From Candidatus Zymogenus saltonus (GTDB lineage Bacteria; Desulfobacterota; Zymogenia; Zymogenales; Zymogenaceae): a stretch of DNA of 60,479 nt. Where the stretch lies: assembly GCA_016929395.1 (NCBI GenBank), contig JAFGIX010000001.1:1-60479 (forward strand), read 5' to 3'. The notes under the pieces were generated by a model. The model ran no database searches and had not been told where the DNA came from. It was given only the letters and a program-made list of their open reading frames with translations. The position numbers and the translations under genes were made by a program. Shown here one piece after another: positions 10,859 through 49,826 of the stretch (position 1 is its first letter; each line of letters starts with the position of its first letter).

Positions 10859-11902
10859 ATGGAAGAGCTAAAACTGACCAGCATGGTCAAGGCCGCGGGG
10901 TGAGCCGCTAAGACGGCGCCCGACGCCCTGGCGCAGGTCATGCGCCGCTTAAAAGACTATTTCCCGAGGGATAGTTTTCCCAACCTGATGGTGGGTCTGG
11001 ACGATTGGGACGATGCGGCGGTCTACAAGATCAACGACGAGACCGCCATCATCCTGACGCTGGACTTCTTTACACCCATCGTGGACGACCCCTTCGACTT
11101 CGGCGCCATTGCGGCCGCCAACGCCCTCTCGGATATTTATGCGATGGGGGCCGACCTTGTTTTGGCCCTCAACATCTGCGGCTTCCCGGATGACCTGCCA
11201 AAGGAGATAGTCGGAAAGATACTGGAGGGAGGGGCCGACAAGGTCAGGGAGGCGGGGGGAGTCCTGGCGGGGGGCCACACCATAGACGACAGGGAGCCGA
11301 AGTACGGCCTTGTGGCGATGGGAACGGCCCACCCGGAGCGGGTCCTCACGAACAAGGGCGCCCTTCCCGGAGACGCTCTCGTCCTCACGAAGCCTCTGGG
11401 AGTGGGGATCGTGACCACCGTCCTGAAGGCCGGTGAGGCGGATAAGGGGGACGTGGAGGGCGCCACGATCTGGATGAAGAAGCTCAACAAGGCCGCCGCA
11501 GGAATAATAAGGGATGTGGGGGCCGACGCCTTGACCGATATCACAGGGTTTGCCCTCTCCGGCCACTCTTTGGAGATGGCAAAAAGCAGCGGGGTAAGGC
11601 TGGACTTCGTTGTCGAAAGCCTGCCGTTTGTGTCGGGGGCAAAGAGATACGCAGATATGTGGCTCTTCCCGGGGGGAACCTGCAACAACGAGAGGTCGTT
11701 CAAGGAGAGCGTCCGGTTCGATGAGGCGATCCCGGAGGAGATGAGACAGCTCCTCTTTACCCCGGAGACATCCGGGGGGCTTCTGGCGGCGGTAAAGCCG
11801 GAAAACCTCGACGCACTGAAATCAAGGTTTGAAGAGGCCGGGGAAGATCTCTGGGTAGTGGGGGAGGTTTCCGAGGGGGAGGGGATAAGATACACGCCGT
11901 AG
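10859..11902 (+). CDS. selD: selenide, water dikinase SelD, selenocysteine-containing (in-frame UGA)
   Basis: 347 residues when translation starts at ATG 10859 (RBS GAGGAG just upstream) and the TGA at 10901-10903 is read as selenocysteine. The N-terminus then contains AAGUAAK, the SelD active-site motif, with U15 and K18 equivalent to the E. coli Cys17/Lys20 pair. Beginning at ATG 10940 would lose the catalytic site. A hairpin at 10930-10946 (GGCGCA-GGTCA-TGCGCC) closely resembles the apical SECIS hairpin of E. coli fdhF, with the loop 32 nt after the UGA. The body shows ATP-binding features such as DFFTPIVDDP and LAGGHTIDD. SelD makes selenophosphate from selenide and ATP. A bidirectional terminator follows at 11986-12017. 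Confidence 0.95.
10930..10946 (+). promoter_or_regulatory. bacterial SECIS apical hairpin in selD
   Basis: A perfect 6-bp stem GGCGCA/TGCGCC with the loop GGTCA. SelB-binding SECIS loops usually carry GGU, and the 32-nt distance from the UGA lies within the known bacterial range (about 16-37 nt). Confidence 0.8.
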
Positions 11903-39652: not shown

Positions 39653-40354
39653 ATGGGAGCCTTTAACAGAAAGAATTTTTTCAGGGGCATCGTAGATTCC
39701 CTCCCGATAGTCATATCGATATTTCCCTTCGGCATTGTCTTCGGCGTTTTGGCGATAAAGTCGGGATTCACGATATACGAGGCGTGCTTTTCCAGCGTTG
39801 TGGTCTTTGCCGGGGCCGCCCAGTTCTGCTCCCTTCCCCTGTTTGCGGCGGGGGTTAGCCCCTGGGCGATCATCGGGACCACGTTCATCATCAACCTCAG
39901 GCATCTCATCATGAGCGCCTCCATCTCCAGAAGGATAAAGGAGGAGGAGCTGCTCCCCAGGGCGGCGGCTTCGTACTTACTGATCGACGAGTCTTTCGCC
40001 GTGACCTCGGCTTGGTGGGACTCCGGCAAGAGGGAGTCCGCCCGGGACTTCCTTATCGGGTCGGGGCTTGCCGCCTGGACGTCCTGGAACATCGCGACGA
40101 TCCTGGGGGCGTTATTCGGGAACGTCCTGGGCGATCCGAAGAGACTGGGACTCGATTTCGCCATTGTCGCGGGATTTATCGGGCTTCTGGTGCCGCTGGT
40201 GAAGGGGAGGGTAGAGGTTCTGGTCCTTCTCTACGCGATAATCGTTTCGGTACTGTCATATATTTTCATCCCGGGTAACTGGTACATTCTGGTCGCCACC
40301 GTCCTTGGGAGCCTTGTCGGGGCCGTTTTCTCGCGGGACGAGGATGTCGACTGA
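39653..40354 (+). CDS. azlC: AzlC-family permease subunit, copy 1
   Basis: 233 residues. AzlC features: DSLPIVISIFPFGIVFG (near 15-31), GAAQFCSLPLF, TTFIINLRHLIMSAS and the LGDPKRLGLDFA segment. With AzlD it forms an exporter of branched-chain or related amino acids. It is followed directly by a second, very similar azlC and an azlD. A possible upstream promoter has TTGTGT and TATAAT 17 nt apart near 39580. The RBS is weak. Confidence 0.9.
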   Translation: MGAFNRKNFFRGIVDSLPIVISIFPFGIVFGVLAIKSGFTIYEACFSSVVVFAGAAQFCSLPLFAAGVSPWAIIGTTFIINLRHLIMSASISRRIKEEELLPRAAASYLLIDESFAVTSAWWDSGKRESARDFLIGSGLAAWTSWNIATILGALFGNVLGDPKRLGLDFAIVAGFIGLLVPLVKGRVEVLVLLYAIIVSVLSYIFIPGNWYILVATVLGSLVGAVFSRDEDVD

Positions 40355-40370
40355 AAAAGGTGGTTTAAGG

Positions 40371-41072
40371 ATGGGAGCCTTCAACAAAAAGAAGATGGTC
40401 AAGGGCGCCGTGGATTCGCTCCCGATAGTTATTTCGGTATTGCCCTTCGGGATTATCTACGGCGTTCTGGCGATAAAGTCGGGGCTGACGATATTCGAGG
40501 CGTCCTTTTCGAGCCTGGTCGTCTCCGCCGGGGCGGCCCAGTTCTGCTCCCTCCCTTTATTTGCGACGGGGGCTAGTCCCTGGGCGATCATCGGGACGAC
40601 CTTCATAATCAACCTCAGGCACCTCATATTGGGCGCCTCCATGTCACGAAAGATAAAGGAGGAGGAGATGCTCCCCAGGGCCTTGGCGGCGTACTGCCTC
40701 TTTGACGAGTCGTTCGCCGTGACCTCGGCCTGGTACGACTCCGGAAACAGGGAGTCCGTCCGGGATTACCTTATCGGGTCGGGGCTGGCGGGATGGGCGT
40801 CCTGGAATGTTTCAACGGTTATGGGGGCCGTATTCGGAAACATCCTCGGCGACCCGAAGAGACTGGGGCTAGACTTCGCCATCGTTGCGGGCTTTGTCGG
40901 GCTCCTTGTGCCGATGGTGAAGGGGAGGGTGGAGCTTCTCGTGCTACTTTTTGCGGCAGTAGCATCGGTCCTGTCATATCTCTTCATTCCGGGGAGCTGG
41001 TACATCCTGATCGCGGCCCTCACTGCGAGCGGGGTCGGCGCCGTCTTTTCGCGGGACGGGGATGGGGAGTAA
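40371..41072 (+). CDS. azlC: AzlC-family permease subunit, copy 2
   Basis: 233 residues from ATG 40371, the same length and start (MGAF) as copy 1. The frame is open upstream to 40305 but that part overlaps copy 1 and has no RBS, while AAGG-type bases precede 40371. Most residues match copy 1, including AGAAQFCSLPLF, SPWAIIGTTFIINLRHL and the LGDPKRLGLDFAIVAGF stretch. The copies differ mainly in membrane-helix residues, so the two may differ in substrate or act as a heteromer. Confidence 0.9.
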   Translation: MGAFNKKKMVKGAVDSLPIVISVLPFGIIYGVLAIKSGLTIFEASFSSLVVSAGAAQFCSLPLFATGASPWAIIGTTFIINLRHLILGASMSRKIKEEEMLPRALAAYCLFDESFAVTSAWYDSGNRESVRDYLIGSGLAGWASWNVSTVMGAVFGNILGDPKRLGLDFAIVAGFVGLLVPMVKGRVELLVLLFAAVASVLSYLFIPGSWYILIAALTASGVGAVFSRDGDGE

Positions 41073-46196: not shown

Positions 46197-46838
46197 TCAT
46201 TTCTCGGCGGGGCAGACCGAGAGCCCGTTAAGGAGCGTGGCGGTCAGCATGTCGGTCGCCCTCTTCGCATCTTCGGCCGTAATCGACCTCACGCCGTCCA
46301 CGATCCACTTCAGCATTATCCTCTCAACCGATCCATATATGGCGTAGGCGGCCAGCGTCGGGTCGATGTCGGCGTTGAACTTGCCCCGGCTCTGGCCTAT
46401 CTCCACTATCTTCGTGATGAGATCGAAGGCGTCCTTGAAGTGGCGGACGTTCTCCCCGCTGAAGAACCGGGAGGCCTTGACGACGTCTATGATCATGACC
46501 TCGATCATCCTCGGATTGTTTTTATACGAATGAAACAAAAACGAGATAAGCCCCCTGACCATCTCCCTCGGGTCGTCTTCGGTCTCGATCACCCTCTTTA
46601 TGGCGGACAGGAAGTTCTCCCAGCGGGTCTCGAAGATCGATAACAGCAGGTCTTCCTTGCTGTCGAAGTAGTGGTAGACGAGACCGTAGGCGATGCCCGC
46701 CTCGTTGGCGATATCGGAGACCCGGGCGCCGAAGTACCCCTTGTCCGCGAAGACCTTTATGGCGGCATCCAGGATGACCGTCGTCTTGTCCGTCGAGTCC
46801 TCGTTGTTGTTGTTTGCTTTTACGGTTTTTTTAGGCAA
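46197..46838 (-). CDS. TetR-family transcriptional regulator
   Basis: 213 residues. Helix-turn-helix: ILDAAIKVFADKGYFGARV and IANEAGIAYGLVYHYFDSKE (residues 23-65). It starts at TTG 46836-46838 (AAGGA upstream), reads on the same strand as the acyl-CoA dehydrogenases immediately downstream and is probably their regulator. A palindrome in its own leader (46913-46928) suggests autoregulation. Confidence 0.88.
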   Translation of the reverse strand: MPKKTVKANNNNEDSTDKTTVILDAAIKVFADKGYFGARVSDIANEAGIAYGLVYHYFDSKEDLLLSIFETRWENFLSAIKRVIETEDDPREMVRGLISFLFHSYKNNPRMIEVMIIDVVKASRFFSGENVRHFKDAFDLITKIVEIGQSRGKFNADIDPTLAAYAIYGSVERIMLKWIVDGVRSITAEDAKRATDMLTATLLNGLSVCPAEK

Positions 46839-47337: not shown

Positions 47338-49749
47338 CTAATGGAGGCTCAGGCGGGTCCTCGCGATGATCTCGTCTTTGACGATGTTGGGGAGATCGTC
47401 GAAGTAGGCGCAGTAACCGGCGACGCGGACGACCAGGCCCGGATATTTCCCCGGGTTTTTACGGGCGTCCAAGAGCGTATCGGCGTCGAGGACGTTGATC
47501 TGCAGCTCCATCCCGCCGGACTCGAAGAAGCCCCTTGTGAGCGCCCCCAGGATCTCGACTCCCCTCTCCCCGGAAAGAGTTCCGGGATCGAACTTGAGGT
47601 TTGTGGCGTAGCCGTTGGCGGCGAGCTTCGCGTCCACCCTGGAAACGGAGTTCAAAAGCGCCGTTGGGCCGCATTTGTCCATCCCGTTCGCGGGGGAAAG
47701 GCTCGCACCGAAGGGCATCCCCTTGAGCCTCCCGCTGGGGAGGGCGGGGGTCTTCTCGCCGAAGGAGGCATGGGTCGTGGAGGAGTAGAAGCCGGGGACA
47801 TATTGTCCCCCCCTGACGTTCTTGTATCGGGATACCACATCGTGGTAGATATTGGCAACGAGATCGGCGTATTCGTCCGGGAGCTTTTGGTCGTTTCCGT
47901 ATTTAGGCGTCTTGAGAAGCTCGACCCTCAGCTTCGGGTTCGACCTGAAGTCGTCCCTCATCGCCGTAACTAACTCCGGAAGTCTGCATATCTTCCTGTC
48001 GAAGACGGCATCCTTTATGGCGGCAAGCGAATCCGCCACGTCGGCCACGCCCACGCCCTGGACTCCGCTCCCGTTGTAGATGGCGCCGCCCGCGGTTATG
48101 TCCAGTCCCGACTCGATGCAGCCGTCCACCAACATCGACGAGAAGGGGGTGGGGTGAAAGTCCCGGTTTCCGCCGTCGATAACCTCGAGGTCCTTGACCA
48201 TCCTCAAGACCATGTGCTCCACCTGCTCCCGGAAGGCGCCAATGACATCTTCTATCGTGGTAAAGGTCTCCGGGGGCGGGGTGTCGGCGCCGACCTTCTT
48301 TCCCCGCCGTTTCAGCGTCCTGCCCCTGTTCAGCGCAAAGATGAGGCACATGGGGAGGTTGAAGAGGGCTGTGTCCGTGGAGAGAAAGCTCTTTCCCGGA
48401 ATTGACGGCTCCACGCACCCCACGATCCCGTAGTCCCTTGCGTCCTCGAGGAGGTAGCCGTGATGGAGAAGGGACGATATGACCGCCTCGTCGCTGAAGA
48501 TGCCCGGGACGCCGTTTCCCTTTCTCGCAACTTCCACCGCCCGCCTGACGTATTCTTTGGGGGAGCCTTTGTGGGTGCGGGCGTGGTAGTTCGGGTCGCG
48601 AAGTCCCGATCGCTCCATCACGTCGAGGAAGACATAGGTGAGTTCGTTGACTGCGTCATTGCCGTTTCTGTCCATTCCCCCGACGACGGCCGCCTGGGCT
48701 ACGAGGTAGCCGCCGTGACACTTGCTGATCGTCTCCGAGAGGTGGAAGACGTGCTCGGTGGCCTTTGCCGAGAAGCAGAGGAGGAATTCCACGGCTTTTT
48801 CTCTGGTAATCCTCCCCTCCGCCATGTCGCGCCTGTAATAGGGGTAGAGGTACTGGTCGACTCTGCTCAGGGAGACGGCGGAGTTTATCCCCTCGAGGCA
48901 GACGGTAAGATGTGACAGCCACAACGACTGCACCGCCTCATGGAACGTCTCGGCCCCCTCCCTGGGCACCTTTCTCAATATTCGGGCGATCTCGTGAAGC
49001 TCGAAAATCCTTGTCTCGTCCATCTCTTCGGCGGCTTGTCTCTCCGCCTCTATGGCGAGGTTTTCCGCAAAATCGACAAGCCCCTCGGAGACTATCCGGC
49101 ACGCCCTGTGGAGGTCGCCGTCCATCCCCTCCATCTCCTTGAGGTAGCCTTCTATGCCGATCTTGACCATCTTCTCGTAGTTGGGGAGGAAGTGGCCTAT
49201 CCCGCCGGCGACGTTTATCAGGTAGAAGGTGGGGGAGAGCTGATCCACCACATAGCGCAAAAAGTGGCCGATCCTTCCCGGGAAAAACGACCTGATTATC
49301 ATGTTTCGGGTAAGCCAGTAGGGAATTATCCGGAAGATGAACTTGAGCCTCTCCGACCACGGTATTTGAAAGGGGGTCGTCTCTCTCTTGTCTATCCAGA
49401 GCAGCTCCTGGTTTACGAAGACCCCCGAGAGCTCCGGCTGGATTATGGCGGACTTCCTGTGGCTGCCCACGTTTCCGACTATCAATTCGTCGTCGAATAT
49501 CTTGGCCGACTTGTTGCGAAGGAGGTGTCTTATAGCCTTCGCCTTCCTTATTATCATCGGCTCCTTCGGATCGTCGTATTTTTTGAAATATTCAGTGATG
49601 AGCCAGGCGCGCTCGGTGCAGAGATGCATTTTACTTGACAGGATATTTTCCTTTATGCGGGCAAAGCGATCCGATCTTTTCTCGCTTTTGTATTGTTCAA
49701 TTCCTACGGGTTCAATCTGTGCGCCCGCGGTAATAGCGTGTCTGGCCAT
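47338..49749 (-). CDS. glycyl radical enzyme of the dehydratase/lyase branch, unknown substrate
   Basis: 803 residues. The active-site thiyl cysteine and general-base Glu are in GCVEP (C445, E447); the glycyl radical loop is RVAGYCAYF (G778) near the C-terminus. The length and GCVEP motif place it with the glycerol/propanediol dehydratase, choline-lyase and decarboxylase group rather than pyruvate formate-lyase. After GCVEP it has SIPGKSFLSTDTALFN instead of the WHDAAFFN pattern of CutC and the diol dehydratases. A hydrophobic segment near 134-190 (IIPYWLTRN, IRSFFPGRIGHF) seems unusual. No radical-SAM activase is encoded nearby. RBS AAGGAG. Confidence 0.88.
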   Translation of the reverse strand: MARHAITAGAQIEPVGIEQYKSEKRSDRFARIKENILSSKMHLCTERAWLITEYFKKYDDPKEPMIIRKAKAIRHLLRNKSAKIFDDELIVGNVGSHRKSAIIQPELSGVFVNQELLWIDKRETTPFQIPWSERLKFIFRIIPYWLTRNMIIRSFFPGRIGHFLRYVVDQLSPTFYLINVAGGIGHFLPNYEKMVKIGIEGYLKEMEGMDGDLHRACRIVSEGLVDFAENLAIEAERQAAEEMDETRIFELHEIARILRKVPREGAETFHEAVQSLWLSHLTVCLEGINSAVSLSRVDQYLYPYYRRDMAEGRITREKAVEFLLCFSAKATEHVFHLSETISKCHGGYLVAQAAVVGGMDRNGNDAVNELTYVFLDVMERSGLRDPNYHARTHKGSPKEYVRRAVEVARKGNGVPGIFSDEAVISSLLHHGYLLEDARDYGIVGCVEPSIPGKSFLSTDTALFNLPMCLIFALNRGRTLKRRGKKVGADTPPPETFTTIEDVIGAFREQVEHMVLRMVKDLEVIDGGNRDFHPTPFSSMLVDGCIESGLDITAGGAIYNGSGVQGVGVADVADSLAAIKDAVFDRKICRLPELVTAMRDDFRSNPKLRVELLKTPKYGNDQKLPDEYADLVANIYHDVVSRYKNVRGGQYVPGFYSSTTHASFGEKTPALPSGRLKGMPFGASLSPANGMDKCGPTALLNSVSRVDAKLAANGYATNLKFDPGTLSGERGVEILGALTRGFFESGGMELQINVLDADTLLDARKNPGKYPGLVVRVAGYCAYFDDLPNIVKDEIIARTRLSLH

Positions 49750-49797
49750 AAGTCCGTTCTCCTTAATAAAAAATTTTCAATAATAATGCGCTCGGTA

Positions 49798-49826
49798 ATT
49801 GTACAATATTATGAGTAATTTTGCAA
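49798..49826 (-). promoter_or_regulatory. promoter of the glycyl radical enzyme gene
   Basis: On the minus strand TTGCAA (49821-49826), 17-nt spacer, TACAAT (49798-49803). The enzyme is thus likely transcribed alone. Confidence 0.6.

Follow-up and report, generated by a model that had tools for sequence, protein, structure and literature searches.

An AfPFL2-lineage glycyl radical enzyme in Candidatus Zymogenus saltonus, its likely activase on another contig and a linked two-enzyme set in relatives

The window analyzed in this study, 60,479 nucleotides of Candidatus Zymogenus saltonus DNA, makes up all of contig C1; the genome comprises 92 contigs and 3.76 Mb and is 99.6% complete. The window encodes a glycyl radical enzyme (GRE), designated GRE-1. 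Our analysis favors, at a probability of about 0.6, the reading that GRE-1 is an active eliminase-class enzyme of the lineage of Archaeoglobus fulgidus PFL2 (AfPFL2), activated in trans by an activase encoded on contig C34, and an optional companion of a gene set consisting of a second GRE (GRE-2), this activase and a PNPOx-like gene. GRE-1 itself belongs to a known enzyme kind; of greater interest is the linked set of two GREs. For many GRE clades no reaction has been assigned, and a solitary GRE is difficult to test for want of a known activase. The linkage described here names an activase (that of C34) and a partner set, which opens radical installation and the screening of substrates to direct tests for a clade of uncultured anaerobes in at least three phyla.

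The GRE-1 gene lies at 47338-49749 on the minus strand and is an intact open reading frame of 803 amino acids with an ATG start. The protein matches the PFL-like (E=4.6e-173) and Gly_radical (E=9.3e-28) domains over its full length, and its designation as an eliminase-type GRE draws on these domains, the PDB match, an AlphaFold model and dN/dS. A Shine-Dalgarno-like AAGGAGA (49758-49764, minus strand) stands ahead of the ATG. The first-pass annotation gave the gene its own promoter; a promoter-like TTGCAA-17-TACAAT is indeed present upstream (49798-49826, minus strand; found by consensus scan only), but since the scan of this region returned 5 sites vs 2.2 expected, such a promoter is plausible rather than established. 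No RNA elements were found near the gene. A TetR-family regulator downstream (46197-46838, minus strand) is syntenic in the same genus and is given as context only. Two acyl-CoA dehydrogenase (ACAD) genes adjoin GRE-1; they were rejected as a pathway clue, being conserved only within the genus.

Among solved structures the best match of GRE-1 is AfPFL2 (2f3o), at approximately 36% identity, followed by glycerol dehydratase (GDH). The AlphaFold model (pLDDT 87, pTM 0.89) gave the same order of matches, with a TM of 0.91 to AfPFL2 and to GDH. The GRE barrel fold with the catalytic cysteine in the central loop (C445, invariant) is present, and the C-terminal R-V-x-G-[YFW] signature of the superfamily occurs as RVAGY, with glycine at 778. 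In a tree of 89 GREs, GRE-1 falls inside a 33-row clade (SH-aLRT 100) nested in a 52-row clade with AfPFL2 (SH-aLRT 100). The tree, a quick search that contains long branches and uses reference sequences taken from PDB alignments, some lacking part of the N-terminus, separates GRE-1 from GDH, propanediol dehydratase (PDD), 9rco, HypD, CutC and HpsG, and places GDH, PDD and 9rco together. By monophyly GRE-1 is thus a member of an AfPFL2-like clade; the clade is uncharacterised and membership names no function. Its members, of about 55-79% identity, come from Desulfobacterota (Desulfobacterota-type MAGs), Chloroflexota/Dehalococcoidia and Actinomycetota, and the nearest named relative is Candidatus Zymogenus (78% identity). 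None of the NCBIfam GRE equivalogs came near its cut-off for GRE-1, the best being HypD with 498 bits vs 1100. GRE-1 is not close to any characterised GRE, and the first-pass description of its substrate as unassigned holds on all three counts, that is, equivalog scores, identity to the best solved relative and a separate branch. A literature search on the clade, on AfPFL2 function and on a shared activase found nothing direct among the papers covered. To our knowledge, the substrate of AfPFL2 itself is not established.

In most loci of the clade GRE-1 stands alone, which counts against the favored reading. In seven relatives it is physically linked to the GRE-2/activase/PNPOx-like set (L010, L011, L028, L134, L136, L142 and L122). 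The activase, the PNPOx-like gene and GRE-1 follow in a row in L010, L011 and L028, with GRE-2 upstream of the row in L011 and L028 and with the 5' end cut in L010. The order of L011 and L028 (GRE-2/activase/PNPOx-like/GRE-1) recurs in L134, L136 and L142. In these three loci and in L028, a regulator of FadR type stands ahead of GRE-2. The set of L122, from the same family as the window, is linked in a different order. In G002, of the window's family, the order is GRE-1, GRE-2, activase, PNPOx-like. The G002 genes match those on C34 of the window's genome at 74% (GRE-2), 72% (activase) and 71% (PNPOx-like), and the flanks of the G002 locus are syntenic with those of C34; hence in the window's genus the set stays on C34 and GRE-1 lies elsewhere. 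The linked copies represent two separate GRE-1 lineages, each with its own gene arrangement and subtype of GRE-2, which makes two origins of the linkage, or a rearrangement, probable. The PNPOx-like label is weak, as Pfam PNPOx_N scored just below its cut-off, and searches of the PDB with this protein gave nothing significant. In L142 (4182-6517, minus strand) GRE-1 is frameshifted near codon 543 in an otherwise complete set, through sequencing error or recent loss. A carboxymuconolactone-decarboxylase (CMD)-family gene directly downstream of GRE-1 in L024, L026, L029, L030, L036 and L055 was rejected as a functional clue, being synteny of one Dehalococcoidia lineage.

Analysis of the whole genome revealed six GREs, the other five being 28-36% identical to GRE-1, and two GRE activases above the family cut-off, on C34 and C43. 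The C34 activase adjoins GRE-2 and the PNPOx-like gene; the C43 activase is clustered with two related GREs. None of the 40 radical-SAM matches of the genome falls on C1, in agreement with the earlier reading that the window holds no activating radical-SAM gene. The orphan status assigned on that basis is correct locally, but not for the genome with its two activases, where the linkage in seven relatives points to that of C34. As the window takes in the whole contig, it has no flanking sequence in which an activase could be looked for. Activation in trans has precedent, as PflA of Escherichia coli acts on more than one GRE. Because of the linkage in relatives, the C34 activase is preferred as the trans-activator of GRE-1 and is likely to serve in this role.

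That GRE-1 is activated by the C43 enzyme, or by any activase that happens to be expressed, and is not specially tied to GRE-2, is the strongest competing explanation, though still an unlikely one. The genome offers two activases only, and no radical-SAM gene occurs on contigs C1, C27 and C64, which hold three of the six GREs, so that a promiscuous activase is possible. The control on co-occurrence also fits it. Among 395 genomes of the phylum GRE-1 was found in 9 and GRE-2 in 39, with both in all nine GRE-1 genomes (hypergeometric 3.6e-10), but the C27-type GRE used as a control co-occurs with GRE-2 in 11 of its 13 genomes. Co-occurrence was therefore rejected as a specific tie; it reflects GRE-rich genomes, and physical linkage alone was counted as evidence. 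The correlation of GRE-1 and GRE-2 distances (Mantel r 0.50, p 6e-4, n=14) was likewise set aside, since shared species history can produce it. Against this explanation stand the direct linkage of GRE-1 to a set of the C34 type in seven relatives, a linkage that seems to have had two origins or to have been rearranged, and the two GREs that the C43 activase has in its own cluster. Across 37 GRE-1-bearing records, an activase was present in 35 and GRE-2 at ≥45% identity in 29, several of these as contig-end pieces.

Two further GREs of the genome were also seen without a neighboring activase. The C27 locus (L099, 4003-12463, minus strand) contains a GRE with two CoA-transferase subunits, MmgE/PrpD and an acyl-CoA dehydrogenase, and relatives of this GRE with 65-72% identity occur in other genomes of the phylum. 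The GRE of C64 (L100, 7630-10035, plus strand) is solitary and on a long branch; its best NCBIfam scores are PFL2-3 and the sulfopropanediol dehydratase HpsG, below both cut-offs.

At the active site, the residues named in the first-pass annotation, C445 and E447 in GCVEP and G778 in RVAGY, were found in place and are invariant in the clade. In the alignment, on the minus strand throughout, the catalytic Cys445 (codon 48415-48417) corresponds to GDH Cys433, Glu447 (48409-48411) to GDH Glu435 and HypD Glu436, His186 (49192-49194) to GDH His164 and HypD His160, and Asp459 (48373-48375) to GDH Asp447; the radical Gly778 is encoded at 47416-47418. Asp459 is invariant in the clade and His186 in the clade as well as in the AfPFL2 and GRE-2 groups. 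The residues after GCVEP read SIPGKSFLSTDTALFN, as quoted earlier; the neighborhood called non-canonical is not unique to GRE-1 but is the AfPFL2-lineage form common to the whole clade, and AfPFL2 and GRE-1 share the motif F-x-S-[ST]-D-[AT]-A-L after the catalytic cysteine. The hydrophobic insertion once placed near residues 134-190 does not exist as such: the stretch can be aligned over its whole length, folds into ordinary helices in the model and is equally hydrophobic in AfPFL2, its length being 55-57 amino acids in the clade vs 52-53 in AfPFL2 and GDH.

The C-x-E motif together with a polar residue on beta-1, which marks the eliminase class, is present in GRE-1 as C445-x-E447 and the invariant H186. 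The trans-4-hydroxy-L-proline dehydratase HypD (6vxc) cannot dehydrate without Glu436 and His160, which correspond to E447 and H186 (PMC7077986); CutC and IslA likewise make use of the beta-1 position held by H186 (PMC8473560). Because the cysteine, glutamic acid, histidine and aspartic acid are kept and the HypD equivalents are essential, GRE-1 is most likely an eliminase and probably, within that class, a dehydratase. Its pocket differs from that of the glycerol and propanediol enzymes; we infer dehydration from the conservation of four residues between proteins that are about 36% identical.

It is improbable that GRE-1 is just another dehydratase of glycerol or 1,2-propanediol. GDH and PDD are among its nearest solved structures (TM 0.90-0.91, 33-36% identity), and these enzymes (1r9d, 5i2g, 9rco) share with GRE-1 the fold and the equivalents of Cys, Glu, His164 and Asp447. 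However, the diol-binding pair His281-Ser282, kept in GDH, PDD and 9rco, is lost: Asn289-Ser290-Ala291 (codons 48877-48885, minus strand) replace GDH Gly280-His281-Ser282, with N-S-A in 32 of 32 clade members. At the position of GDH Tyr339, where PDD and 9rco have Phe, the clade has valine, alanine or threonine, W445-H446 are replaced by S-T, and GDH, PDD and 9rco sit together elsewhere in the tree. The microcompartment genes for which a search had been proposed are likewise missing from the genome, where no PF00936 shell match was obtained while positive controls were detected; no microcompartment or downstream pathway gene pointed to the substrate. Loss of the His/Ser pair and of Tyr339 suggests a substrate larger or less polar than glycerol or propanediol.

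The other characterised relatives also differ from GRE-1. HypD resembles it in the Cys, Glu and beta-1 His positions (PMC7077986) but has Asp278 where GRE-1 has Ser290, lies on a separate branch and, as given above, scores far below its cut-off. The choline TMA-lyase CutC shares the GCVEP motif and the fold, whereas its Asp216 position is His186 in GRE-1, its Tyr208 is Val180 and its equivalog score is 482 bits vs 1050. Even AfPFL2, the best sequence and structural match and of the same superclade, has E-Q-A in place of N-S-A at 289-291, and glutamic acid at the Val180 site. This site (codon 49210-49212, minus strand, by alignment; HypD Phe152) holds glutamic acid in 31 of the 32 members of the clade and in each of 16 further AfPFL2-superclade sequences used for comparison; valine is confined to the window's family, where GRE-1 of the window, L013 and the G002 copy have it.

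A decaying or non-catalytic relic, left since GRE-1 departed from the operon in the window's genus, is very improbable. Separation from the activase and the unusual E180V at a substrate-contact site would fit it, but the reading frame is intact with all catalytic residues, and E180V also occurs in G002, where linkage is kept. Comparison with the same-genus orthologue gave dN 0.13 vs dS 1.98, a dN/dS of about 0.07 that is rough as dS is near saturation, and this indicates that the gene is under purifying selection. A GRE of the hydrocarbon-activating (X-succinate synthase) or arylacetate decarboxylase type, which the adjoining ACAD genes and the syntrophs and sulfate reducers among the relatives might suggest, is hardly credible given the distance of TutD and MasD (186 and 210 bits vs 496 for AfPFL2), decarboxylase equivalog scores of 278-343 bits vs cut-offs of 1100-1150, and ACAD neighbors confined to the genus.

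For the favored reading, a trans-activated eliminase of the AfPFL2 lineage, the following course can be proposed. The C34 activase would install the radical on Gly778, from which it would move to Cys445. Cys445 would then abstract hydrogen from a substrate whose neighboring carbon bears a hydroxyl or comparable leaving group; departure of this group would be assisted, as in diol dehydratases, by Glu447, His186 and Asp459, and the product would be an aldehyde or ketone. GRE-1 would act here as an optional companion to the GRE-2 set.

A more far-reaching version, which we regard as doubtful, is that GRE-1 and GRE-2 are the two halves of a dedicated system: a FadR-regulated set of two GREs from different lineages with a shared activase and a PNPOx-like, putatively flavin-binding partner, the GREs acting sequentially or as a heterodimer. 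Such a system would handle an unassigned metabolite in anoxic sediments and would extend over Desulfobacterota, Chloroflexota and Actinomycetota. If true, a two-GRE set as working unit would be an unusual organisation for the GRE class. The nearest parallel is found in threonyl radical enzyme (TRE) pairs, in which two TREs lie beside one activating enzyme, an arrangement that their authors call atypical (PMC11528403). Both systems encode two radical enzymes with one activase; unlike the TRE pairs, GRE-1 and GRE-2 both have glycine as the radical residue, are about 35% identical and belong to different lineages.

Two further observations concern the rest of the window. The selD gene (10859-11902, plus strand) has an in-frame TGA at 10901-10903 (MEELKLTSMVKAAGUAAK) and apparently encodes a selenocysteine-containing SelD; it adjoins genes named from sequence as YedE-like, TusA-like and cysteine-desulfurase-like. 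Two AzlC-family genes stand in tandem (39653-40354 and 40305-41072, plus strand), and both match one single gene of the same-genus genome at 74%, which suggests a lineage-specific duplication.
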